Shown here one piece after another: positions 46,710 to 59,250 of a stretch of 64,000 bases of DNA. This stretch comes from Candidatus Moanabacter tarae (GTDB lineage Bacteria > Verrucomicrobiota > Verrucomicrobiia > Opitutales > UBA2987): the NCBI GenBank assembly GCA_003226295.1, contig CP029803.1:2361001-2425000 (forward strand), in the 5' to 3' direction. Position 1 is the first letter of the stretch, and each line of letters begins with the position of its first letter. The notes beneath the pieces are model-generated. The model was not told the origin of the DNA and did not search any database. It saw only the letters and a list, made by a program, of their open reading frames with translations. The position numbers were made by a program, and so were the translations under genes.

Positions 46710-47099
46710 GTGGATCAAATTTTACCACATCTACAATTTACGAAAGAGCATGAGTGGATTCGGATTGATGGCGAATCCGGTCTGGTAGGCATTACGGATT
46801 TTGCTCAGGAGGAACTTGGTGATGTTACCTTCGTAGAACTTCCCGAGATTGGATTGGTTCTCGATAGAGGAGATGTCATTGGAGTGGTGGAATCGGTTAA
46901 AGCCGCATCTGATATCTTCACCCCTTTAAGTGGGGAAATCCTCGAGATTAACACTGCTGTGGAGGACAGACCTGAGTTAGTCAACAGTGATCCCTATGGA
47001 GAAGGCTGGTTGGTACGGTTGAGAATCAAGAATCCTGAAGAGGTACAGTCCCTCCTTTCGAGTGAGGAATATGAGCGATTGATTAAGGGAGAATCATGA
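46710..47099 (+). CDS. gcvH: Glycine cleavage system H protein
   Basis: Lipoyl carrier protein of glycine cleavage, 129 residues. The lipoyl-accepting Lys64 is in ESVKAASDIF, flanked by GVVESVKAA and PLSGEILEINTAVEDRPELVNSDPYGEGW (core PLSGEILEIN and PELVNSDPYG). N-terminal HEWIRI is typical. Starts with GTG at 46710. Its stop overlaps the start of the next gene (ATGA at 47096-47099), so they are translationally coupled. First gene of the long string to 59250. No gcvP or gcvL is in the window. Confidence 0.95.
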   Translation: MDQILPHLQFTKEHEWIRIDGESGLVGITDFAQEELGDVTFVELPEIGLVLDRGDVIGVVESVKAASDIFTPLSGEILEINTAVEDRPELVNSDPYGEGWLVRLRIKNPEEVQSLLSSEEYERLIKGES

Positions 47100-48148
47100 A
47101 GTCCTTTAGAATAGCTTTGTACCCAGGTGATGGTATTGGGGTTGAAGTAACTGAGGCGACGGTTCGAGTAATTAAGGCACTGGAGTCCAAGCTATGCGAA
47201 TTCCAACTCGAAATGGTAACTTTTAATTGGGGCGTCGATTACTATGACCGACATGGCATAGTGGTGCCAGACGACTTTATTCAGACGCTCGATTCCTTTG
47301 ATGCAATATTTCTCGGTGCCGTTGGATTTCCTGAGAGATTACCTGACCATATTACCCTTTCACCGTTGATAAAGCTTCGACAAGCTTTCGATCTTTACGC
47401 CTGCGTGCGGCCGGCTAGGACCTTCCAAGGGGTTCCCAAGCCGTTGGCTGGAGGGGCTGATATTGACTTAGTTGTGGTCCGAGAGAATTCAGAGGGAGAG
47501 TATGTTAACAACGGTGGGCGGTTCCATCAGGGTAAGGCCGAGGAGGTAGCTCTGCAAACGGCGGTACACACAAGACGCGGGATCGAGAGAATTCTGCGTT
47601 TCAGCTTCGACCTCGCTCAAAAAAGACGCAATCGGCTCACCATGATCACAAAATCGAACGCGCAGCGCTACGGGTTTGTCCTTTGGGATGAAATTCTAGA
47701 AGAGGTAAGGGCTGACTACACCGCAGTCGAAGTTAACAAACAACATATCGATGCCGCCTCGATGAATTTTGTAAGGTGTCCTGAGACATTTGACGTGGTT
47801 GTTGCCTCGAATCTTTTCGGGGATATTTTAACCGACCTCTCTGGCGCTGTCACTGGTAGTCTTGGGCTTAATCCGTCGGCCAATCTCGATCCTGAAAGAA
47901 GGCATCCTTCCCTCTTTGAGCCGGTACACGGATCTGCGCCCGATATTGCCGGAAAGGGGATAGCTAATCCAGTTGCCGCTATCCTAAGTGGTTCTATGAT
48001 GCTCGATTGGTTAGGTCTCAAACCGGCCGGTGAAGTTTTACGAGACGCGGTTGAGAGAGTGTTAGCAGTTGGGATTTCAACTCCAGACGTAGGAGGCTCT
48101 CTCACGACTGAAAGGGTCACACAATCGATCATCGAGGAGCTCAATTAG
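47096..48148 (+). CDS. Tartrate/D-malate/isopropylmalate-type dehydrogenase
   Basis: A 350-residue NAD-dependent beta-decarboxylating dehydrogenase. Blocks: IALYPGDGIGVEVTEA, FLGAVGFPERLPDHITL, ENSEGEYVNNGGRFH (ENxEGEY substrate loop), TKSNAQRYGFVLWDE, and the signature NLFGDILTDLSGAVTGSLGLNPSANL (core NLFGDILTDLSG). SAPDIAGKGIANP is in the adenine site. The ITKSNAQRYGFVLWDE block is more like tartrate dehydrogenase/D-malate dehydrogenase (TtuC, DmlA) than LeuB. Its role in a C1 operon is unclear. Coupled to gcvH by an ATGA overlap and 25 nt before the fusion gene. Confidence 0.85.
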   Translation: MKSFRIALYPGDGIGVEVTEATVRVIKALESKLCEFQLEMVTFNWGVDYYDRHGIVVPDDFIQTLDSFDAIFLGAVGFPERLPDHITLSPLIKLRQAFDLYACVRPARTFQGVPKPLAGGADIDLVVVRENSEGEYVNNGGRFHQGKAEEVALQTAVHTRRGIERILRFSFDLAQKRRNRLTMITKSNAQRYGFVLWDEILEEVRADYTAVEVNKQHIDAASMNFVRCPETFDVVVASNLFGDILTDLSGAVTGSLGLNPSANLDPERRHPSLFEPVHGSAPDIAGKGIANPVAAILSGSMMLDWLGLKPAGEVLRDAVERVLAVGISTPDVGGSLTTERVTQSIIEELN

Positions 48149-48173
48149 AACTTATCTTCAAGCTTGTTGTACT

Positions 48174-50837
48174 GTGCCCACCGCTGGATTGAGAAGGACT
48201 CCTATCCATTCTTGGCATCTGGAAAAAGGTGCCAAGATGATGGATTTCGGAGGGTGGGATATGCCGTTGCATTACACCGGAATCTTAGCTGAACACCTTG
48301 CAACACGCAGATACGGAGGGTTGTTTGATGTCAGCCATATGGGACGGATATTGGTTCAGGGAAAAGACAGTATGCGATTTCTTCAGCGAGTTCTCTCCAA
48401 CAATGCAGCAGCCCTAAAGCCGTGGCGGGCCCAGTACACACTGATTCCTAATGAAACGGGGGCGCTGATCGATGATGCCTACCTCTACCGTTTTGGAGAT
48501 GCCGAATTCGTTATTGTCGTGAATGCGGTTAACCTCGAAGCAGATCTAAGGCACCTCCGTGAAGAAGGTGCGGGGTTCTCGAACCTTGAACTGAAGGATG
48601 AAACCGAAGATTCGGCTATGTTTGCTTTTCAGGGTGCTCTAACTCGGGAGATACTCAAGGGAGAGTTAGAGTTTGGGAAATTGCCTGATCCATTCCGCAA
48701 CTGTCTTTCCGAAGTTGTCTTGAGCGGGGTGGAAGTTCGTGTTAGCCGTACAGGATATACTGGTGAACCAATCGGCTTTGAACTTTTCCTTGGAGCTGAT
48801 CGAGCTCTAGAGGTTTGGGAGCGACTCTACTTGGCAGGCGTTGAGAGGGGAGTTTTGCCGGTTGGTTTAGGAGCAAGGGACACGCTTCGAATGGAAGCTG
48901 GACTGCCGCTCTATGGACACGAGTCGGGCAGAGTTTTGGATGGAGAGGAAATTCCTGCTATGGCTGTCCCCGCAGCGAGGGGCGCGGTCAGTTTCTCCGA
49001 GGAGAAGGGTGAATTCATTGGCGGAGAAGCACTGGCCGAACAAGCATCCGATTTACGTAGAATTCGCCGAGGCCACCCTGGGCAAACCAAAATTCTCCAA
49101 AGGCGGATTCGTTTGTTCGCGCTAATGGATAAAGGAGTAGCTCGACAGGATGACCGTATATTTATTGATGAAAAAGATGTAGGGGTGGTGACTAGCGGCA
49201 CCATGATTCCCTACTGGGAATTTATTGATGAGGGTGTAACGATGCGCATCGCAGATGAAATAAAAAGGCGCCCCATCGGAATAGCTTACGTCGATATTGG
49301 CCTTCGAATTGGTCAGGAGATGACGATTAAAGTGCGAAATCGCTCACTTCATGCCAGGATTGTGTCCTGGCACGGACGGACGGAAGCTCCTCCCCATTTT
49401 CACCCAATACTAGTCGATCAGGTTATGAAGAAAAAATCGAAAAGGAAAGAGAGAGATTTAGCCTATGATGCGGAGACTCTACTGCATAAGAGTCTCGAAA
49501 ATCACGGGTGGCGGCAACGGCGTTGCGTCAATCTAATCCCTTCGGAAATGACGACATCACCTTTAGTGCGGTTGCTCCAGGTCTCAGATCCGGTGGGTCG
49601 ATATGCGGAACATAAAGAGCTACTCACCGCATTGGGGAAGGAGGTTTTCTTTTACCAAGGAACAGATTTTATTGGGTGGGTAGAAAACCAACTGATTGAG
49701 GAGATGGCGAATTTTCTAGGCTGCGGCCTGATTGAGGCGCGGCTGATGAGCGGTCAGATGGCGAATATGACGGTTTTTGGTGCCCTTCTGGACCATCGAA
49801 ATCTAGGAGATCGACAGAGCGAACCGAAACGTATCCAGTCGGTATTGAATAATCACCTTGGGAAAGGTGGGCATCTCAGTGCTCAACCACTGGGAGCACT
49901 ACGGGATTTTGTGGCCAAGAATCCCAAAACGGAACGGTTCGCGGTGGAAAATTTCCCTGTGTGCGACGATAACCCATTTCGAATCGACCTTGAAGCCACG
50001 GAGCGTGTTCTGGAAAGCCTTAACCCAGAGTTGATAATATTTGGTAAGAGTATGGTTCTGCATCCCGAGCCGGTTGCCGCAATTAGAGAAATAGTATCCG
50101 CGAAAAAAGAGAAGCCTATCATTCTTTATGACATGGCTCACGTCCTAGGTCTTATAGGGCCATCTTTCCAGTATCCTTTTAAGGAGGGTGCAGATTTTGT
50201 CACTGGGTCAACGCACAAGACATTCTTCGGTCCACAGCGCGGGATAATCGGAGCCGATTTTGAGGATGGCAACGTGAAACATCCGCTCTGGAAAGCAGTC
50301 AGGAGACGTGCTTTCCCGGGTATGGTAAGCAACCATCACTTGGGAACTTTGCTTGCTCTGTTCATGGCTGCTTTGGAGATGAATGCATATAAATCGGAAT
50401 ACCAACCGCTGGTTATTGCTAACGCCAAAGCATTTGCCCGAGCTTTGAATAAAGAAGGGCTTGAGGTCATGGGAGATCCAGATTTAGATTTTACGGAGAC
50501 CCACCAAGTGATCGTGTACGTCGGTTATGCTAAGGGCTGCGAGGTTGCCCGAACTTTGGAAGAGAACAATATTGTTGTTAACTATCAGGCCGTTCCGGGC
50601 GATGAGAGTTTTACAACCAGTTCCGGGCTGCGGCTTGGGGTTTCGGAGATGACTCGTTTCGGGATGAGAGAGAAAGACTTCGAGGAGCTTGCCTCGCTTT
50701 TTAGTGATGCGGTAAGGAATAAGAAGGGGGTTGGCGATGAAATTGCTCGTTTGCGATCCCGATTCCAGGCTATACACTTCTGTTTTAACGGTGAGCCTTT
50801 TGATTCCTTAAAGACCGAACTTCTAAAAACTTTTTAA
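48174..50837 (+). CDS. gcvT-glyA: Aminomethyltransferase (GcvT)-serine hydroxymethyltransferase (GlyA-like) fusion
   Basis: An 887-residue fusion. Residues about 1-410 are a full GcvT: RRTPIHSWHLEKGAKMMDFGGWDMP (core KMMDFGGWDMP), FDVSHMGRI, DD at 100-101 (catalytic region GALIDDAYLY), RTGYTGEPIGFELF, and ARDTLRMEAGLPLYGHE. A short basic linker (418-427, MKKKSKRKER) follows. From about 430 a divergent GlyA begins: NLIPSEMTTSPLV (Glu457), RYAEHKE, SGQMANMTVFGAL, YDMAHVLGLIGP, the PLP lysine Lys682 in TGSTHKTFFGPQRG, and the carboxylate-binding Arg820 in SGLRLGVSEMTRFG. Both halves use THF, so methylene-THF made by GcvT could pass to the GlyA half for serine. GTG start at 48174. I know of no described fusion of this type; unverified. 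Confidence 0.93.
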   Translation: MPTAGLRRTPIHSWHLEKGAKMMDFGGWDMPLHYTGILAEHLATRRYGGLFDVSHMGRILVQGKDSMRFLQRVLSNNAAALKPWRAQYTLIPNETGALIDDAYLYRFGDAEFVIVVNAVNLEADLRHLREEGAGFSNLELKDETEDSAMFAFQGALTREILKGELEFGKLPDPFRNCLSEVVLSGVEVRVSRTGYTGEPIGFELFLGADRALEVWERLYLAGVERGVLPVGLGARDTLRMEAGLPLYGHESGRVLDGEEIPAMAVPAARGAVSFSEEKGEFIGGEALAEQASDLRRIRRGHPGQTKILQRRIRLFALMDKGVARQDDRIFIDEKDVGVVTSGTMIPYWEFIDEGVTMRIADEIKRRPIGIAYVDIGLRIGQEMTIKVRNRSLHARIVSWHGRTEAPPHFHPILVDQVMKKKSKRKERDLAYDAETLLHKSLENHGWRQRRCVNLIPSEMTTSPLVRLLQVSDPVGRYAEHKELLTALGKEVFFYQGTDFIGWVENQLIEEMANFLGCGLIEARLMSGQMANMTVFGALLDHRNLGDRQSEPKRIQSVLNNHLGKGGHLSAQPLGALRDFVAKNPKTERFAVENFPVCDDNPFRIDLEATERVLESLNPELIIFGKSMVLHPEPVAAIREIVSAKKEKPIILYDMAHVLGLIGPSFQYPFKEGADFVTGSTHKTFFGPQRGIIGADFEDGNVKHPLWKAVRRRAFPGMVSNHHLGTLLALFMAALEMNAYKSEYQPLVIANAKAFARALNKEGLEVMGDPDLDFTETHQVIVYVGYAKGCEVARTLEENNIVVNYQAVPGDESFTTSSGLRLGVSEMTRFGMREKDFEELASLFSDAVRNKKGVGDEIARLRSRFQAIHFCFNGEPFDSLKTELLKTF

Positions 50838-50839
50838 CT

Positions 50840-52582
50840 ATGGCGAAATCCAATTTAGAGGGAGCGGTTGGTAGGACCAAGTCATTCGAAGGGGCTCTCC
50901 CTCTTCCCTCAGACATAGAAATCGCGCGAAAGGCAACGCTAGAGCCAATAGCCAGCGTTGGGCGGGAGATCGGACTTAACGATGATGAATTGGAACTTTA
51001 TGGTGAATTCAAGGCCAAGGTAAAACAGAATGCGTTCGACCGCTTGGTTGACCGAGAGGACGGGAAATTGATCCTCGTTACAGGGATGACTCCAACCCGG
51101 TCCGGAGAGGGTAAAACGCTAACTAGTATCGGGCTTGCTCAGGCTTTTGGGAAATTGAACCATTTACATCTTCTTGTACTAAGGGAACCTTCTCTGGGAC
51201 CAACTTTCGGGATTAAAGGCGGGGCTACTGGGGGTGGATTTGCTCAAGTTCTGCCGATGGAGGAAATCAATATACATTTTACAGGCGACCTTCATGCTGT
51301 GACGGCCGCACATAATTTACTGGCGGCAACGGTTGATAATCATGTATTCCAGGGAAACGAACTCGGGATTGATCCCGATAAGATTATATTGCGACGTGTC
51401 ATGGATCTTTGCGATCGTCAACTTAGAGATTGCAAGATTGGACTCGGGCCACCAACTAATGGATTTCCCCATCGAAACGGGTTCGATATAACAGCCGCAT
51501 CCGAAGTCATGGCCATCCTGGCCCTTGCTTCCCAGGCCAGGGACCTGCGGGAAAGGTTGGGGAAAATCATCGTTGCTTATACGAGGAAGGACGAACCTGT
51601 CTTCGCCGACCAGTTTGGTTGCATTGGTGCCATGATGGTTCTGTTAAAAGATGCCCTCAACCCTAATCTGGTGCAAACGATTGAGAATACTCCAGCACTG
51701 ATTCATTGTGGACCTTTTGCGAATATCGCACATGGATGTAATAGCGTCAGGGCCACACGACTGGCCCTCAAGTTAGCAGATTATGTTGTTACCGAATCGG
51801 GTTTCGCTGCTGATCTTGGGGCCGAGAAGTTCATAAACATAAAGTGTCGTGCTTCCGGAATCCAACCGAATGCAGCTGTATTTGTCGTTAGCTGTAAGGC
51901 CTTGAAAAGACACGGGGGTGTAAGGGAGAAAAAACTTTCTGGGGTCGATATAGAAGCCCTGAAACGGGGCTTCGAAAATGTCCGTTGCCACTTGAAAAGT
52001 CTTGCCGAATTTGGAATTCCCGTAATTGTCGCAATAAATCGTTTTCCAGAAGATAAGTGTAGTGAACTTGATACGGTTTTCAACCTCTGCCAAGACGAAG
52101 GGGTCGAAGCTGCTCTCTCTGAAGTAGCAAGTTTAGGGAGTAATGGAGGACTTGAACTTGCCCAAAAAGTCCTCACTGTTCTACATGCTTGGAGAGGTAA
52201 GGCGTCCTCATTTCAGTTCCTCTACGAGCAAGACGCACCTGTTCGTGAAAAGATTGAGATTGTTGCCAGGAAGGTCTATCACGCTGACGGTGTCGAATTT
52301 CATGAAGAAGCTGAAGCGGACATTCGGCGCCTCGAGCGCCTCCATCTGGATGCATTGCCAATATGCATTGCCAAAACTCAATTCTCCATATCGGATGATC
52401 CCAAGAAGTTGGGAGCACCAAAAGGATGGCGCCTCAAAGTGAGGAATGTAAAGTTGAATAATGGTGCAGGGTTTTTGGTCGCCATTACGGGTCAGACAAT
52501 GCTGATGCCTGGAATGCCAAAACAGTCCAATTTGGAGAACATCGGAATAGATGATGAAGGAAAGATATTTGGACTCTCTTAG
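50840..52582 (+). CDS. fhs: Formate-tetrahydrofolate ligase
   Basis: Makes 10-formyl-THF from formate, THF and ATP, or runs in reverse to give ATP and formate. 580 residues, near the usual 555-560. The P-loop is TPTRSGEGKTLTSIGLAQ, then LREPSLGPTFGIKGGATGGGFAQV (core EPSLGPTFGIKGGATGGG), LTGDLHAV-like HFTGDLHAVTAAHNLL, and RNGFDITAASEVMAILALA (core GFDITAASEVMAI). HGCNSVRATRLALKLADYVVTESGF closes the nucleotide pocket. The start codon is two bases after the stop of the fusion gene, so expression is coupled. In this operon it could oxidise methyl-derived C1 units onward to formate once a methylene-THF dehydrogenase acts. Confidence 0.95.
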   Translation: MAKSNLEGAVGRTKSFEGALPLPSDIEIARKATLEPIASVGREIGLNDDELELYGEFKAKVKQNAFDRLVDREDGKLILVTGMTPTRSGEGKTLTSIGLAQAFGKLNHLHLLVLREPSLGPTFGIKGGATGGGFAQVLPMEEINIHFTGDLHAVTAAHNLLAATVDNHVFQGNELGIDPDKIILRRVMDLCDRQLRDCKIGLGPPTNGFPHRNGFDITAASEVMAILALASQARDLRERLGKIIVAYTRKDEPVFADQFGCIGAMMVLLKDALNPNLVQTIENTPALIHCGPFANIAHGCNSVRATRLALKLADYVVTESGFAADLGAEKFINIKCRASGIQPNAAVFVVSCKALKRHGGVREKKLSGVDIEALKRGFENVRCHLKSLAEFGIPVIVAINRFPEDKCSELDTVFNLCQDEGVEAALSEVASLGSNGGLELAQKVLTVLHAWRGKASSFQFLYEQDAPVREKIEIVARKVYHADGVEFHEEAEADIRRLERLHLDALPICIAKTQFSISDDPKKLGAPKGWRLKVRNVKLNNGAGFLVAITGQTMLMPGMPKQSNLENIGIDDEGKIFGLS

Positions 52583-52589
52583 CTAATCG

Positions 52590-53831
52590 ATGCCTTACCG
52601 TCTACTTCGATTTGCGTTAAAGCAAAGGTATCCGGAGCCAAGAATGTTCCGAAGGCCGGATCTTTTAAAGAAGAAATATGATGCGGTTATTATTGGCGGA
52701 GGCGGGCATGGTCTGGCTACTGCCTACTATTTGGCGCGCGATCACGGGATTTCCAATGTTGCTGTACTGGAAAAGAATTATATTGGAAGTGGAGGGACCG
52801 GACGAAACACGGCGATCATTCGTTCCAACTACCTCACGCCTGAGGGCACCCTGCTTTACGAGGAGAGCGTCAAGCTTTATCGGGATCTCTCGACGGAATT
52901 CGACCTCAACCTTTTCTATTCAGAACGTGGCCATTTTACGTTAGCCCATTCCGATGCAGCAATGCGTACGATGCGATGGCGAGCCGAGGTAAACAAGCAT
53001 CTAGGAGTTCAAAGCGAAGTTGTTGATCGGGGGTTTATCAAGGAGAGATGTCCACAGATTAATCTCGATTGCGGGAATAATATGCCGATCCAGGGTGCGC
53101 TTTACCACGCACCCGGTGCGATTGCTCGGCATGATGCTGTTGCATGGGGCTATGGCCGTGGAGCCGATATGCGGGGAGTTGAAATTCATCAGAATACGGC
53201 TGTTACTGGAATTAGGGTACGAAATGGCAGGGTAGAGGGAGTTGAGACAACTAAAGGATATATCGAGACAAGAACAGTTCTGTCTGCGGTAGCAGGGTAT
53301 ACCCCGCGGATAACAGAAATGGTCGACCTTCGGACCCCTATTGTTGTTTATCCACTTCAGGCTTGTGTGACTGAACCTTTAAAGCCATGGCTGGATGCAA
53401 TCATCGTATCGGCGAGCTTGCATCTTTACGTTAGCCAGTCGGCGCGGGGAGAATTAGTAATGGGCGCGGCTCTTGACCCCTACGAAGTGCACTCGACTCG
53501 ATCAACCCTTGATTTCGCAGAGGGACTAGCAGACCATCTACTGGAATTGTTTCCTTTTCTCGGTGATGTTAAAGTGCTGAGACAGTGGGCCGGACTTGCC
53601 GATATGACTCCAGACTTTGCCCCTATTATGGGGAAGACAATAATTGACGGGTTTTACATTGATGGTGGATGGGGAACTTATGGATTTAAAGCAACCCCGG
53701 TATGTGGCAAGACGATGGCCTACACAATTGCCCATAACGAAGAACATGAACTGATAAGACCGTTTAGTCTCTCGAGATTTGAGAACTTCAATTTGGTTGC
53801 TGAAAAAGGAGCGGCTTCAATAGGGCATTAA
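52590..53831 (+). CDS. soxB: Sarcosine oxidase / N-methylglutamate dehydrogenase, beta-type FAD subunit
   Basis: A 413-residue FAD-dependent amine oxidase subunit. FAD motif: AVIIGGGGHGLATAYYLARDHGI (core GGGGHGLATAYYLA), then SGGTGRNTAIIRSNYLTPEG, TMRWRAEVNKH. GAIARHDAVAWGYGRG contains His181, in the place where covalent FMN is attached (His173 in the Stenotrophomonas enzyme; alignment by eye). C-terminal GGWGTYGFKATPVCGKTMAYTIA (core GGWGTYGFKATP) and PFSLSRFENF end the fold. This is the SoxB of heterotetrameric sarcosine oxidase or its paralogue MgdA of N-methylglutamate dehydrogenase; sequence alone does not separate these here. Seven bases follow the fhs stop. Confidence 0.9.
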   Translation: MPYRLLRFALKQRYPEPRMFRRPDLLKKKYDAVIIGGGGHGLATAYYLARDHGISNVAVLEKNYIGSGGTGRNTAIIRSNYLTPEGTLLYEESVKLYRDLSTEFDLNLFYSERGHFTLAHSDAAMRTMRWRAEVNKHLGVQSEVVDRGFIKERCPQINLDCGNNMPIQGALYHAPGAIARHDAVAWGYGRGADMRGVEIHQNTAVTGIRVRNGRVEGVETTKGYIETRTVLSAVAGYTPRITEMVDLRTPIVVYPLQACVTEPLKPWLDAIIVSASLHLYVSQSARGELVMGAALDPYEVHSTRSTLDFAEGLADHLLELFPFLGDVKVLRQWAGLADMTPDFAPIMGKTIIDGFYIDGGWGTYGFKATPVCGKTMAYTIAHNEEHELIRPFSLSRFENFNLVAEKGAASIGH

Positions 53832-53898
53832 CCCGTTTTCCCTTTTATAGGGAATCATATTTAGGAGAGCTGACGCCCAGTCTGAAAGGATCTTAACA

Positions 53899-54150
53899 AT
53901 GAAAGTATTACGATGTCCAATTAACGGGGTCAGGCCGTTGCAGGAGTTTGCCTTTGGAGGTGAGGACCGCCCACTTTCTGAACCCGACAAGAAGAGCGAT
54001 CCAGAGTGGGCAAATTATGTCTTCAATCGTTCGGGCCAGCCAAGTGTAAAAAAGGAGTGGTGGTACCATGTCGCTAGCGGGGTTTGGTTTATCGCTGAGC
54101 GTGACACTCTGAAAGACGAGTTTGTTCGGACTTATCTTCCCGAGAGATGA
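53899..54150 (+). CDS. soxD: Sarcosine oxidase / N-methylglutamate dehydrogenase, delta-type subunit
   Basis: An 83-residue subunit by position and by pattern: MKVLRCPINGVRPLQEFAFGGE, then DPEWANYVFNRSG, EWWYHVASGVWFIAERDT and LKDEFVRTYLPER. The family's zinc site is normally CPxCG near the start and an H...C pair near the W-F-block. Here the first motif is CPING (Cys6 only) and the later one has His57 but no Cys, so the zinc site looks lost. Its stop codon overlaps the start of soxA (ATGA), which is strong evidence that the subunits are made together. A 67-nt gap with a TTCCC/GGGAA hairpin and an AAAGGA site precedes it. Confidence 0.87.
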   Translation: MKVLRCPINGVRPLQEFAFGGEDRPLSEPDKKSDPEWANYVFNRSGQPSVKKEWWYHVASGVWFIAERDTLKDEFVRTYLPER

Positions 54151-57059
54151 AAGACCGATTGCCTAAACAGTTCTATGAAATTATCGACCGGAGCCAACCG
54201 GTACAGTTCTCTTTTGAGGGCCGAAGTTACCAAGGGTACAAAGGGGATACGATTAGTTCTGCGCTTTGGGCTAACGGAGTGCGAGTTTTGGGACGCAGTT
54301 TCAAGTACCATCGTCCTCGAGGTATCTTCAGCATGGCTGACATTGATTGCAATGCGATGATGGAGTCGGCTGACGAGACAAATATACGAGGTGATATCAC
54401 ACCTATTGAAAGAGGGATGGACTTATGGGCGGTGAACACGCGTGGTGGTGTGGATAGAGATGCTCTGGGCATACTGGATCGATTTAGCGCATTCACGCCT
54501 GTAGGATTCTACTACAAGGCATTTCATACTCCGAGGAGGCTATTTCCCTTTTACGAAAGAGGGATTAGAAAGATTGCTGGATTAGGTGAGGTTAATACTC
54601 TCAAGCGTAATCGGCTGACACCAAAGGAATATGGGGTTTGTGATATTTTGGTGATTGGTGCTGGGCCTTCAGGTTTATCGGCGGCGGGTGCGGCGGGTGC
54701 GGCGGGTGCCCGCGTTGTCCTGGTGGACGAAAGCCCAGTAGTAGGGGGGAGTTGTCTCCGTCGGCATGTTGGCGCCGGGCGGCTGGGCGAATTGCGGGAG
54801 CAAATCGATCAGAGTCCGAAGATCAAAGTGATAGCGCCGGCGTTGGCAGCTGGCTATTATTCTGACCATTGGGTTGCTTTGGTAGAGAAGACACGGCTCA
54901 CAAAAATGCGAGCTGGAGCGGTGGTAATGGCAACAGGTTGCTACGAGCAGCCGGCCGTTTTCCGTAATAATGATTTGCCTGGTGTCATGCTGACGTCTGC
55001 TGCTCAAAGGCTGATCCAGCTTTACTCCGTAAAACCCTTCGAGCGTCCAGTGATCCTGACGGCCAACACCGGTGGCTATGAAGCCGCGATTCAGTTTACC
55101 AGAGCAGGTATCGAAGTAGCTGCAATAGTCGATCTCCGTCCTGATGGTGCTGATACGATAGGAGAGGATGAGCTGAACAAAATTGGAGTTGTGGTTCATA
55201 AGGGAAACGCTGTTTCAGAAGCTCTTCCAGGCCCTGGAAAGAGATCGGTAGCAGGAGTGAAAATAAGCCGTATTCTCGAGGATGGGGCAACAGTCTCTGA
55301 GGAGTGGAAACGGATAGAGTGTGACGGTATTGCTATGAGTGTGGGTTGGACTCCGGCAGATGGGCTTTTGCGGCAGGCAGGCATCACAATGGAGTACGAT
55401 AATAAATACGAACGGTTTGTCCCGAGGTCGAGACCGTCCGGAGTTTATTTGGCGGGTTCGGTTAATGGCATATTTGGATTGGAGAAAAGAATGGAAGATG
55501 GCCGGAACGCTGGTCTGGAAGCAGCACAGTGGTGCGGATTTTCAAGTGGCCAGGGACTTGCAAAACAGACCGAAAGGGAGGCACGCTCATGGAGCCATTC
55601 ATACCCGATATTCAGTCATCCCCGAGGAAAGTGTTTTGTTGATTTTGATGAAGATGTAACCTTAAAGGACATAGAGAATGCTCATTCCGAAGGCTTTGAC
55701 ACTCCGGAGCTACTCAAAAGATACGCAACGGTTGGAATGGGGCCTAGCCAGGGTAAACACTCCAACCTTCTCGCTTTGAGAATCCTTGCTCAACTGAGAG
55801 GAGAAGGTATGGCCGGGATACAAAATACAACTGCGCGCCCATTTGTTAGCCCGGTAAAATTAGGGTTCCTGGCAGGTCGAAATTTTACTCCTATTCGACG
55901 GACATCAGCGCAGCCCTATCACAAGGCTAGTGGAGCGAAGTTTATGGATGCCGGTAATTGGAAACGCCCGGAGTTCTTCGCGGTGGAAGGGAAGTCACGA
56001 GAAGACTGTATCTATTCTGAAGCCAAGAATGTTCGAAAGAGAGCAGGTCTGATCGATCTCGGAACTCTGGGAAAGATTGAAGCGAGCGGTCCCAACGTTG
56101 TGGAATTTCTGGAACGCATATATACTGGTGTGGTTAAACGAATGAGGGTCGGCACGACTCGTTACGGAGTTTTGTGCGATGAATCGGGTGTGGTGATCGA
56201 TGATGGTATCGTAGGAAGATTGGCTGATAATCGTTTCTACCTCAGCACCACGACAGCCGGTGCGGACGGGATCTATCGTATGATGCAGCGTTGTATAATC
56301 GAGTGGAAGATGAAGGTGAGCTTGTTCAATGCGACTAGTCACTATTTCGCCTGTAACGTCGCTGGGCCACGATCAATCGATATCCTACAAAGCCTCACTG
56401 ACGTGGATTTAGATCCAAAGTCCTTTCCTTATCTTGGCTTACGAGAGGGCAGAGTGGCAGGGGTTCCAGCACGGCTTTCGCGTGTTGGTTTCGTGGGAGA
56501 AATGGGTTTCGAGATTCACCTTAATGCGGATGGAGGGCTGCATGCCTGGAATTCGATAATGGAAACGGGTAGAAAATTTGGGATACGGCCCTTCGGAGTC
56601 GAAGCACAGCGTCTCTTACGTTTGGAAAAGGGACACTTAATCGTCGGTCAGGATACGGACGGGTTAGCAAACCCTTTCGAGGTCGGTTTGAACTGGGCAA
56701 TCAGGATGAACAAGCCTTTCTTTGTAGGTAAAAGAAGTCTAATGATTTTAAAAAAGAAGGAGCCTTTACGCGAATTAGTGGGTTTCGTTCTTCCCTCTGA
56801 CGGTAGGCGGTCACTTCCCAAAGAATGTAATCTCGTCATCCATAAAGGAGAAATCACGGGCCGCGTAACAAGCATCGGGCGAAGTCCTGCGCTGGGTTGT
56901 CCTATCGGTTTGGCATATGTGGCTCCTTTCCAGAAAGAACCTGGTTCGCAGCTGAATATTAAACTCGATGATGGGGACAGGATTCAAGCTACTGTAGTCG
57001 CAATTCCTTTCTTTGATCCTGATAATTACCGGCAGAAACCAAGTAGTTCGATTATATAA
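54147..57059 (+). CDS. soxA: Sarcosine oxidase / N-methylglutamate dehydrogenase, alpha-type subunit
   Basis: A 970-residue subunit. Residues about 15-105 form a ferredoxin-like (2Fe-2S fold) domain, FSFEGRSYQGYKGDTISSALWANG (core GRSYQGYKGDTISSAL), here without the Cys set. An NAD(P)-binding flavin-type Rossmann region follows (DILVIGAGPSGLSAAGAAGAAGARVVLVDESP, core VIGAGPSGLSAAG). From about residue 600 a C-terminal GcvT-type folate domain (SGPNVVEFLERIYTGVVKRMRVGTTRYGVL, core TRYGVLCDESGVVIDDG; and RLLRLEKGHLIVGQDTDGLANPFEVG, core EKGHLIVGQDTDG) receives the methyl group as methylene-THF. Length and domain order match SoxA/MgdC. A 27-bp tandem repeat lies in the Rossmann region. Confidence 0.93.
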   Translation: MKDRLPKQFYEIIDRSQPVQFSFEGRSYQGYKGDTISSALWANGVRVLGRSFKYHRPRGIFSMADIDCNAMMESADETNIRGDITPIERGMDLWAVNTRGGVDRDALGILDRFSAFTPVGFYYKAFHTPRRLFPFYERGIRKIAGLGEVNTLKRNRLTPKEYGVCDILVIGAGPSGLSAAGAAGAAGARVVLVDESPVVGGSCLRRHVGAGRLGELREQIDQSPKIKVIAPALAAGYYSDHWVALVEKTRLTKMRAGAVVMATGCYEQPAVFRNNDLPGVMLTSAAQRLIQLYSVKPFERPVILTANTGGYEAAIQFTRAGIEVAAIVDLRPDGADTIGEDELNKIGVVVHKGNAVSEALPGPGKRSVAGVKISRILEDGATVSEEWKRIECDGIAMSVGWTPADGLLRQAGITMEYDNKYERFVPRSRPSGVYLAGSVNGIFGLEKRMEDGRNAGLEAAQWCGFSSGQGLAKQTEREARSWSHSYPIFSHPRGKCFVDFDEDVTLKDIENAHSEGFDTPELLKRYATVGMGPSQGKHSNLLALRILAQLRGEGMAGIQNTTARPFVSPVKLGFLAGRNFTPIRRTSAQPYHKASGAKFMDAGNWKRPEFFAVEGKSREDCIYSEAKNVRKRAGLIDLGTLGKIEASGPNVVEFLERIYTGVVKRMRVGTTRYGVLCDESGVVIDDGIVGRLADNRFYLSTTTAGADGIYRMMQRCIIEWKMKVSLFNATSHYFACNVAGPRSIDILQSLTDVDLDPKSFPYLGLREGRVAGVPARLSRVGFVGEMGFEIHLNADGGLHAWNSIMETGRKFGIRPFGVEAQRLLRLEKGHLIVGQDTDGLANPFEVGLNWAIRMNKPFFVGKRSLMILKKKEPLRELVGFVLPSDGRRSLPKECNLVIHKGEITGRVTSIGRSPALGCPIGLAYVAPFQKEPGSQLNIKLDDGDRIQATVVAIPFFDPDNYRQKPSSSII
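54681..54707 (+). repeat. Three-copy 9-bp tandem repeat inside soxA
   Basis: GCGGCGGGT is repeated exactly three times (54681-54689, 54690-54698, 54699-54707) and is followed by GCCCGCG. It codes for the AAGAAGAAG stretch right after the FAD/NAD GxGxxG loop. In-frame units of three codons can change copy number by slippage without breaking the frame. Confidence 0.9.
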
Positions 57060-57180
57060 TATGCCATTAAGGTATTTATATTTTCAGGCCTCAGCTAAGG
57101 CGTGTAGAAATATACCCGGAGAACTGAAAGCTGAAACTGGAAATTTATGAATTAGCTTCAACTCTTCATCAAGATTCGCC

Positions 57181-57858
57181 ATGGATAGCAGTCAAGGAAG
57201 TTCCTACCCACGAACCAGTCCCTTACGGAGCGAATGGGAGACGATGAATCCCATTTTAGGCGAATATTTCTCTATGTCCGTTCCTGAGCAATTTTACAGC
57301 ATTGAGAGAGAGAGGGAATATTTAAAGGATCTTGCTCTATGTGACCTCAGTGCTTTCCCAAAAATTGGAATAAAAGGAGACGGAGCAACTGAATGGTTGG
57401 AACAGCAGGAAATCAAGATCCCTAAGGGAATATACCAACATCTGGCTCTTCCGAATAACGGGTTAGTGGTTCGGTTGGATCATCACGAGTACTTCCTCGA
57501 GGAAGGGTTCGAGGGTACGACGGTCAAACGGCTATCCGGTGTAGTTGGAGAGGAAACTGGGAGGGTCTTCTATTTTAACCGACAGGATGCCAGTCTCCTT
57601 CTCTGCGGGAACCGAGCACTCGATGTTTTACAACAGAGTTGTTCCTTTGATTTCTCGGGAGACGGGAGCAATTTAACAATGACCCAAGTCGCAGGTGTAT
57701 CGTGCATGGTTTTACCCATGACGGATGGATTTGCTCCAGGTTTCAGAATCTGGTTGATACCTAGTTACGCAATTTACCTATGGAGAGTGCTATTCGAAAT
57801 TGTAAGAGATTGCAACGGGCACGCTGTTGGCATGGGGAGTGTAAGAGATTTCACTTAA
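57181..57858 (+). CDS. soxG: Sarcosine oxidase / N-methylglutamate dehydrogenase, gamma-type subunit
   Basis: A 225-residue GcvT-fold protein that in the tetramer sits next to the SoxA folate domain. Family signs are thinner: CDLSAFPKIGIKGDGATEWLEQQ matches the LCDLSALPRFGVKGPGAADWL-like start (core DLSAFPKIGIKG), and DGFAPGFRIWLIPSYAIYLWR and LLLCGNRALDVLQQSC are weak. Length (225) and position after soxA match SoxG/MgdD. A 121-nt gap separates it from soxA with no gene in it; I cannot see a promoter. It begins at ATG 57181. Alternative start ATG at 57244 would be shorter. Confidence 0.75.
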   Translation: MDSSQGSSYPRTSPLRSEWETMNPILGEYFSMSVPEQFYSIEREREYLKDLALCDLSAFPKIGIKGDGATEWLEQQEIKIPKGIYQHLALPNNGLVVRLDHHEYFLEEGFEGTTVKRLSGVVGEETGRVFYFNRQDASLLLCGNRALDVLQQSCSFDFSGDGSNLTMTQVAGVSCMVLPMTDGFAPGFRIWLIPSYAIYLWRVLFEIVRDCNGHAVGMGSVRDFT

Positions 57859-57894
57859 TTAAATTGGAAATTCAAACAGTAGTAATAGAACGTT

Positions 57895-59250
57895 ATGATA
57901 GGTAAGAAGGATGAAATGACGATTAGAGAGGCCAAACAGTTCCTCAAAGAGAACGAAGTAAAGTTCGTCCTCGCTCAATTCGTGGATGTCCACGGAGTTG
58001 CGAAAACAAAGGCCGTTCCCGTAGCTCACTTTGAAGACATTTTGACGGATGGAGCTGGATTCGCTGGATTTGCGGTTTGGGGATTAGGGCAGGAGCCCCA
58101 CGACCCGGATTTCATGGCAATTGGTGATCTTAGCACGCTCTCTCTCGTGCCCTGGCAACCTGGATTTTCCAGGATTGTTTGTGATGGACGAGTAAACGGT
58201 GAACCTTGGCCCTTCGACACACGTTACATTCTGTCCCAACAGGTTAACAGGATGGCCGATAAAGGATGGATATTCAACACCGGACTTGAGCCTGAATTCA
58301 TGCTCCTAGTGAAAAATGAAGACGGATCAGTGAAGCCGGCCGACGAAAGCGACCAGTTGGACAAGCCTTGTTACGACTACAAGGGGTTGTCTCGGAGTCG
58401 GGGATTCATTGAGAAATTAGTAGATTCACTCCTGGCGGTGGGGTTTGACGTCTACCAGGTCGACCATGAAGACGCGAATGGGCAATTCGAAATAAATTTT
58501 ACTTACACCGATGCTATGACCTCGGCTGACCGCTATGTTTTCTTTCGGATGGCGGCTGGTGAGATTGCCCGTGAATTCGGGGTCATCTGTTCCTTTATGC
58601 CCAAGCCTATGGCTAAGAGAACAGGCAGCGGTATGCATATGCATTGTTCGATTGACGATGGAAACGGCATTTCACTATTTGGGGATGACTCCGATAAGAA
58701 TGGACTAGGTCTTTCGGAACTGGCCTATCATTTTCTTGGAGGCTTATTTGAACATGCTGCTGCCCTAACCGCTCTTGTTGCTCCCTCGGTGAACTCCTAT
58801 AAGCGTTTGGTAGTTGGAAGGGCGCTCTCCGGTGCCACTTGGGCTCCTGCATATATTTCCTACGGCGATAACAATCGCACCACTATGGTTCGGGTTCCCT
58901 ATGGGCACCTTGAGCTTAGGTTGAGTGATTCGAGTTGTAATCCATATCTGGCCACAGCAGCTGTCATCTGTGCCGGACTCGATGGGATCGATCGCAAGCT
59001 TGATCCGGGCAAGCCGCAGAACTTTAATCATTACAATTATTCGTTGGATGAGATTCGGAGGTTGGGTATAGGAATACTTCCCCAGTCCTTGAAAGAGGCG
59101 ATCAATGCACTTGAAGCAGATACGCTTTTTAGCCAACAACTAGGCAGCGAATTCATCCAAGAATTCATAGAAGTAAAAAACATGGAGTGGCTCGAATACG
59201 AGCGTCATGTTTCGAATTGGGAGATTGAACGCTACCTCGAATACTTCTAG
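57895..59250 (+). CDS. gmaS: Gamma-glutamylmethylamide synthetase-like glutamine synthetase (type III/GlnT group)
   Basis: A 451-residue glutamine-synthetase fold enzyme. Blocks: [38 protein letters not shown], the metal site [46 protein letters not shown] (core [15 protein letters not shown]), [29 protein letters not shown] (core [16 protein letters not shown]), and [28 protein letters not shown] (core NPYLA). The whole pattern closely follows what I recall of gamma-glutamylmethylamide synthetase (GmaS), which joins methylamine to glutamate. It is 36 nt after soxG. With mgsABC absent, whether it works on methylamine, ethylamine or ammonia is not shown. Confidence 0.83.

Follow-up and report, generated by a model that had tools for sequence, protein, structure and literature searches.

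A predicted T-protein/serine hydroxymethyltransferase fusion in Candidatus Moanabacter tarae and other bacteria

The aminomethyltransferase of the glycine cleavage system (T-protein or GcvT) and serine hydroxymethyltransferase (SHMT or GlyA) are normally separate proteins. Glycine cleavage and SHMT have methylene-tetrahydrofolate (methylene-THF) in common, and channelling of one-carbon units between them is a long-standing question. GcvT obtains its one-carbon unit from the aminomethyl group on the H-protein, which derives from the alpha carbon of glycine. The products of sarcosine oxidase, glycine and methylene-THF, are both substrates of SHMT. Archaeal SHMT uses tetrahydromethanopterin as its one-carbon carrier.

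Several described systems come close to the gene that we report here. A GcvT-type domain is fused to a partner in DMGDH/DMGO, in the alpha subunit of sarcosine oxidase, and in TMAO demethylase; in all of these, the partner is the upstream one-carbon donor, whereas in our fusion it is SHMT, a downstream user of methylene-THF. Also, a glyA-soxBDAG-purU sarcosine operon is known in Corynebacterium and Colwellia (PMC3691474). T-protein and SHMT are each well known, but their covalent joining appears to be undescribed. We found no description of a GcvT-GlyA fusion in the open-licence literature (subscription journals and domain databases were outside the scope of this search), and neither "fusion" nor "GcvT" occurs in the main text of a 2026 study on glycine-pathway enzymes of Desulfobacterota.

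The fusion gene and its neighborhood

We analyzed a 64,000-nucleotide stretch of the genome of Candidatus Moanabacter tarae (the window). One unbroken frame of 887 codons, with a GTG start and no internal stops, encodes a complete GcvT and, after it, a complete SHMT. The open reading frame and its Pfam domains confirm the initial annotation of a single-gene fusion. The homologues align from residue 6 onward. The gene belongs to a cluster (46710-59250) of close-set genes on one strand, several of which overlap or are separated by a few bases:

46710..47099, + strand: gcvH, with no second copy found in the genome
47096..48148, + strand: tartrate dehydrogenase family (isopropylmalate/isocitrate dehydrogenase superfamily), overlapping gcvH by 4 nt
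48174..50837, + strand: gcvT::glyA fusion gene, 887 amino acids (reading of the open frame; start uncertain, GTG at 48174 or TTG at 48189)
48207..48950, + strand: GcvT folate-binding domain (GCV_T), residues 12-259 (Pfam, 2.9e-73)
49269..49367, + strand: GcvT C-terminal barrel (GCV_T_C), residues 366-398, a weak match (Pfam, 8e-7)
49395..49484, + strand: basic linker of about 30 residues, 408-437 (comparison of fusions)
49485..50696, + strand: archaeal-type SHMT domain, residues 438-841 (Pfam SHMT, 4.6e-36, and fold comparison)
49608..49610, + strand: catalytic Glu479 in RYAE, E57 in E. coli SHMT (alignment)
49611..49652, + strand: lengthened active-site loop, residues 480-493, about 7 residues longer than in E. 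coli (alignment)
50217..50219, + strand: Schiff-base Lys682, K229 in E. coli (alignment)
50840..52582, + strand: formate--tetrahydrofolate ligase (FTHFS), starting 2 nt past the stop codon of the fusion
52590..53831, + strand: soxB-like, sarcosine oxidase beta
53899..54150, + strand: soxD-like, sarcosine oxidase delta (below the model's cutoff)
54147..57059, + strand: soxA-like, sarcosine oxidase alpha, which carries a C-terminal GcvT domain of its own
57181..57858, + strand: soxG-like GcvT-domain protein
57895..59250, + strand: type III glutamine synthetase (TIGR03105)

As in the known sarcosine operon, an SHMT gene lies upstream of the genes for heterotetrameric sarcosine oxidase. However, in the window, the SHMT is fused to GcvT, gcvH lies inside the cluster, and FTHFS is present where PurU would act. 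The sox genes could alternatively be read as N-methylglutamate dehydrogenase, of the methylamine pathway. The tartrate dehydrogenase family gene has no obvious role in the cluster.

The genome contains a single gcvH, two genes upstream of the fusion, and a single GcvP gene, away from both. The GcvP homologue (L106, C1:1562086-1564332) is encoded in one open frame, 1043 codons long.

The GcvT and SHMT halves

The N-terminal half resembles known aminomethyltransferases (TIGR00528 and NF001567; structures 1yx2, 1wos, and 3a8i). It exceeds the curated cutoffs of both models (246.3 versus 235.85 bits for TIGR00528 and 304 versus 300 bits for NF001567), and in the predicted structure of the whole protein it matches the T-proteins 1yx2 and 1wos with a Z score of 47.0. 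Its catalytic Asp100 corresponds to D97 of E. coli GcvT, and 54 alignment columns are invariant among E. coli GcvT, Priestia GcvT, and all of the fusions. The operon partners of GcvT (gcvH-gcvPA-gcvPB) are likewise present beside relatives of the fusion. Unlike GcvT, the fusion has a whole SHMT at its C terminus and two clade-specific insertions in its GcvT half, after GHE.G.D..G and after SGTM.PY, and the fused T-halves group in a clade of their own (100/100). In the window protein, insertions at about residues 249-276 and 346-366 of this half are common to the fusions that we compared, while GcvT of E. coli and Priestia lacks them; they may mark where the GcvT half contacts the SHMT half.

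The C-terminal half matches the SHMT family in Pfam (PF00464, 124.7 bits, gathering score 27). It shares the PLP and catalytic residues with canonical bacterial GlyA, but it is not a member of that subfamily: it scores 254.6 bits against the NCBI subfamily model (PRK00011), which is under the cutoff of 335, and it falls in a separate clade (support of 100 for the split from E. coli GlyA and its kin). Two positions of E. coli GlyA are altered. R235 is replaced by Q688, and the same glutamine is found in the SHMT of Methanocaldococcus jannaschii, while N347 is replaced by Q805, a glutamine that is particular to the fusions and their near relatives.

The M. jannaschii enzyme (4bhd/4uqv) is the nearest solved relative both by sequence (2e-53) and by fold. 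When modeled alone (pLDDT 89.2, pTM 0.91), the SHMT half aligns to 4bhd over 395 residues at 2.1 Å (Z = 44.0). The window protein differs from it in being fused to GcvT, in the Q in place of N347, and in a Glu-Tyr catalytic loop that is about 7 residues longer. Also, the likely one-carbon carrier in the window genome is folate, given the adjoining FTHFS, rather than the tetrahydromethanopterin of archaeal SHMT.

The key residues of the SHMT half are K682, D653, H567, H656, R820, E479, and Y494. Across 49 aligned fusions, the equivalents of E. coli S35, E36, Y55, E57, Y65, H126, S175, D200, H203, H228, K229, and R363 are retained and nearly invariant, and the glutamate of RYAE is present in all 49. 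Together with D100 of the GcvT half, this bears out the statement in the initial annotation that both sets of catalytic residues are retained. Its assignments of Lys682 and Arg820 were correct (K229 and R363 in E. coli), but the glutamate that it placed at position 457 was not: residue 457 is a serine, E458 (E. coli E36) is the last residue of the motif NLIPSE, and E479 is the catalytic glutamate.

The initial annotation had also described the GlyA half as divergent and of uncertain activity, on account of an insertion after RYAEHKE. The insertion is real, at about 7 residues relative to both E. coli and M. jannaschii. However, all of the fusions share it with their near stand-alone relatives, which makes it a feature of the clade and not a sign of decay. 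Decay is also hard to reconcile with five other genomes in which no SHMT-family gene besides the fusion was found (see below). The GlyA half is an archaeal-type SHMT that has been conserved, rather than a bacterial GlyA that has decayed.

A model of the whole protein as a monomer had a pLDDT of 82.9 and a pTM of 0.83, with pLDDT below 50 in the SHMT active-site loops. Across the fusions, the linker is 34-41 amino acids from APP to ENHxWRQ; its length is nearly constant and its sequence is unconserved. We considered Met418, in the linker of the window protein, as an internal start for a free SHMT, but only 5 of 44 relatives have a methionine in the linker, so such a start is not conserved.

Distribution and origin

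We used the SHMT half as the query in a scan of genome contigs, which yielded 80 loci. Together with a protein search of plasmid records, which identified WP_212821284.1 from Vescimonas fastidiosa MM35 (51% identity, 98% covered), this revealed GcvT and SHMT in one frame at 55 other loci. The architecture is therefore not unique; where we saw annotations, they named GcvT only, as for WP_212821284.1. Carriers include SAR324, other Deltaproteobacteria, Desulfobacterota, Armatimonadota, Actinomycetota, bacterium UASB270, and, among the Clostridia, many Lachnospiraceae, Oscillospiraceae, and Christensenellaceae. Besides V. fastidiosa MM35, the isolates include Desulfatitalea alkaliphila M08but. 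In one clostridial family, 14 of 200 genomes have the fusion in one open frame, one further genome has it in split form, and another matches over the GcvT half alone. We found no relative of the fusion in viral contigs.

The relatives often lie in glycine cleavage operons, among them those of many gut and anaerobic bacteria. At 26 loci, the gene order is fusion-gcvH-gcvPA-gcvPB, and at 4 others the fusion comes last, for 30 loci in such an operon; at 3 more loci, the fusion is divergent from gcvH-gcvPA-gcvPB. The Vescimonas gene lies directly before gcvH-gcvPA-gcvPB-lpdA-5-formyl-THF cyclo-ligase.

In the window genome, the fusion is the only GcvT apart from the tail of SoxA and the only SHMT-family protein with the catalytic glutamate, and no canonical GlyA was found. 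In contrast, two genomes from the same family (G001 and G002) encode a canonical GlyA (555 and 541 bits) and a separate GcvT. Thus, the fusion appears to replace both separate genes, and the window lineage appears to run both functions on it. More broadly, the fusion gave the top GcvT match in each of 28 other fusion genomes, none of which had a separate protein at or above the NF001567 cutoff. In G419, G420, G421, G429, and G439, we found no SHMT-family gene other than the fusion; these are metagenome-assembled genomes (MAGs) that may be incomplete, and each of them alone is weak evidence. The main SHMT of a carrier is not always the fused half, as many fusion genomes additionally retain a canonical GlyA.

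The window genome does have a second SHMT-family protein (L109, C1:353798-354913, 412-415 amino acids). It has lost the catalytic glutamate (E57 is N, with RYGN for RYAE), and S175 is replaced by G. Among solved structures, M. jannaschii SHMT and the threonine transaldolase 7k34 come closest to it, and it is perhaps an aldolase or transaldolase; by eye, we recognized no folate-pathway genes around it.

In a tree of SHMTs, the 49 full-length fusions form one group, with low support (13) for the branch that unites them without a Thermogutta protein (L037). Their neighbors, moving outward, are stand-alone proteins from Fermentibacterota and Acidobacteriota, then Woesearchaeota, and then proteins from Thermogemmatispora and SAR324 and M. 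jannaschii SHMT; canonical bacterial GlyA is separated at 100. Long branches limit exact placement. In a tree of GcvTs, the fused T-halves and the Thermogutta protein form a clade at 100/100. The trees of both halves have the same main split, between the side with the window and SAR324 and the side with Clostridia and Desulfobacterota, a pattern that fits a single fusion event long ago and horizontal spread since then. Among 388 genomes of its phylum, the window genome alone carries the SHMT half, which points to horizontal gain.

Three relatives have other layouts. In a Thermogutta sp. MAG (L037:1-3140), fusion-type GcvT and SHMT are adjacent but separate open reading frames, about 180 nt apart; this is possibly the pre-fusion state or a split state. 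One clostridial fusion (G602:C20:7115-9729) is broken near residue 512 into two frames that overlap, and another clostridial match (G457:C3:27484-28710) covers the GcvT half only and has two internal stops (TGA and TAA). In addition, for Thermogemmatispora isolates, Fermentibacteria, an Acidobacteria MAG, and a Woesearchaeota genome (L098, L102, L077, L087, and L093), a stand-alone archaeal-type SHMT of the wider clade was the sole member of the SHMT family that we found.

Proposed function and alternatives

We propose that the fusion is a bifunctional T-protein/archaeal-type SHMT, to which we assign a probability of roughly 85%; both activities are predicted. The GcvT half would convert the aminomethyl group on lipoyl H-protein to 5,10-methylene-THF and NH3, or the reverse, and the PLP-dependent SHMT half would combine methylene-THF, from the pool that it shares with the GcvT half, with glycine to form serine, or the reverse. 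The net local reaction would be 2 glycine <-> serine + CO2 + NH3, with NAD being reduced via GcvP/GcvH/Lpd. In the window cluster, sarcosine oxidase would supply glycine and methylene-THF, and the GcvT half would add a second methylene-THF from glycine. The initial annotation had instead invoked a methyl-derived one-carbon unit for the GcvT half, which does not fit with the H-protein as its donor; a methyl-derived unit would stem from the sarcosine oxidase encoded next door. The direction from glycine to serine seems likelier in the window organism, and the reverse is equally possible in other carriers.

As the initial annotation had plausibly suggested, methylene-THF might also be passed directly from the T-half to the SHMT site of the same protein or dimer, but we hold this putative channelling only tentatively. 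We see about an even chance that both halves are active without any direct transfer, and that the fusion merely fixes the stoichiometry and the co-expression of operon neighbors. That would suit a linker that keeps its length but not its sequence, as well as the separate GlyA in many of the fusion genomes. Also, the two proteins are encoded by separate neighboring genes in Thermogutta, so this clade does not depend on their being covalently joined. However, the fused frame has stayed intact over several phyla and through horizontal spread, which suggests that the link is beneficial but not which benefit it brings.

Other explanations concern the C-terminal half or the gene itself. We think it unlikely that this half is an L-threonine/allothreonine aldolase or transaldolase, with glycine chemistry that does not involve THF. 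The L-threonine transaldolase 7k34 is the nearest non-SHMT structure (Z = 41.5), and the fluorothreonine transaldolase model TIGR04506 scores 137.5 bits, but this is below its equivalog cutoff of 650, and the matches to SHMT are better (254.6 bits for PRK00011 and Z = 44.0 for 4bhd). Furthermore, 7k34 lacks YAE where all 49 fusions have the glutamate of RYAE (in one printed alignment), the half is the sole SHMT-family gene found in several genomes, and it is physically joined to an enzyme that produces methylene-THF. We therefore rejected a threonine transaldolase identity, given the higher scores of the SHMT models and structures and the retained glutamate. It is very unlikely that the half is catalytically silent and has only a structural or oligomerizing role for the T-protein: a second, canonical SHMT in many fusion genomes would permit this, but the catalytic residues are almost invariant, and the lack of another SHMT-family gene in some genomes, as well as of any canonical GlyA found in the window genome, argues against it. 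Finally, there is next to no chance that an assembly or frame artefact joined two adjacent genes. Nothing in the window points to one, although the split clostridial frame and the two Thermogutta genes show such layouts in relatives; the same fused frame at 55 further independent loci, including the isolates MM35 and M08but, can be neither chance nor assembly error, so we rejected this reading for the family.

If channelling does occur, then the fusion, GcvP, and GcvH would make up a dedicated machine for 2 glycine <-> serine, with an ancient covalent link that joins glycine cleavage to SHMT. As a natural covalent fusion that is kept over several phyla and is common enough in gut Clostridia, at about 15 of the 200 genomes from one family, it makes channelling directly testable, and it is a ready part for engineering of the reductive glycine pathway. 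Also, because the annotations that we saw name GcvT only, genomes whose sole SHMT is the fused half would be scored as lacking SHMT.

GcvT domains are numerous in the SAR324 genomes (G415-G418), which encode 7-11 GcvT-domain proteins each. Many of these are in frames of 780-980 amino acids and are probably of the dimethylglycine/sarcosine dehydrogenase types, and their abundance suggests heavy use of methylated amines.
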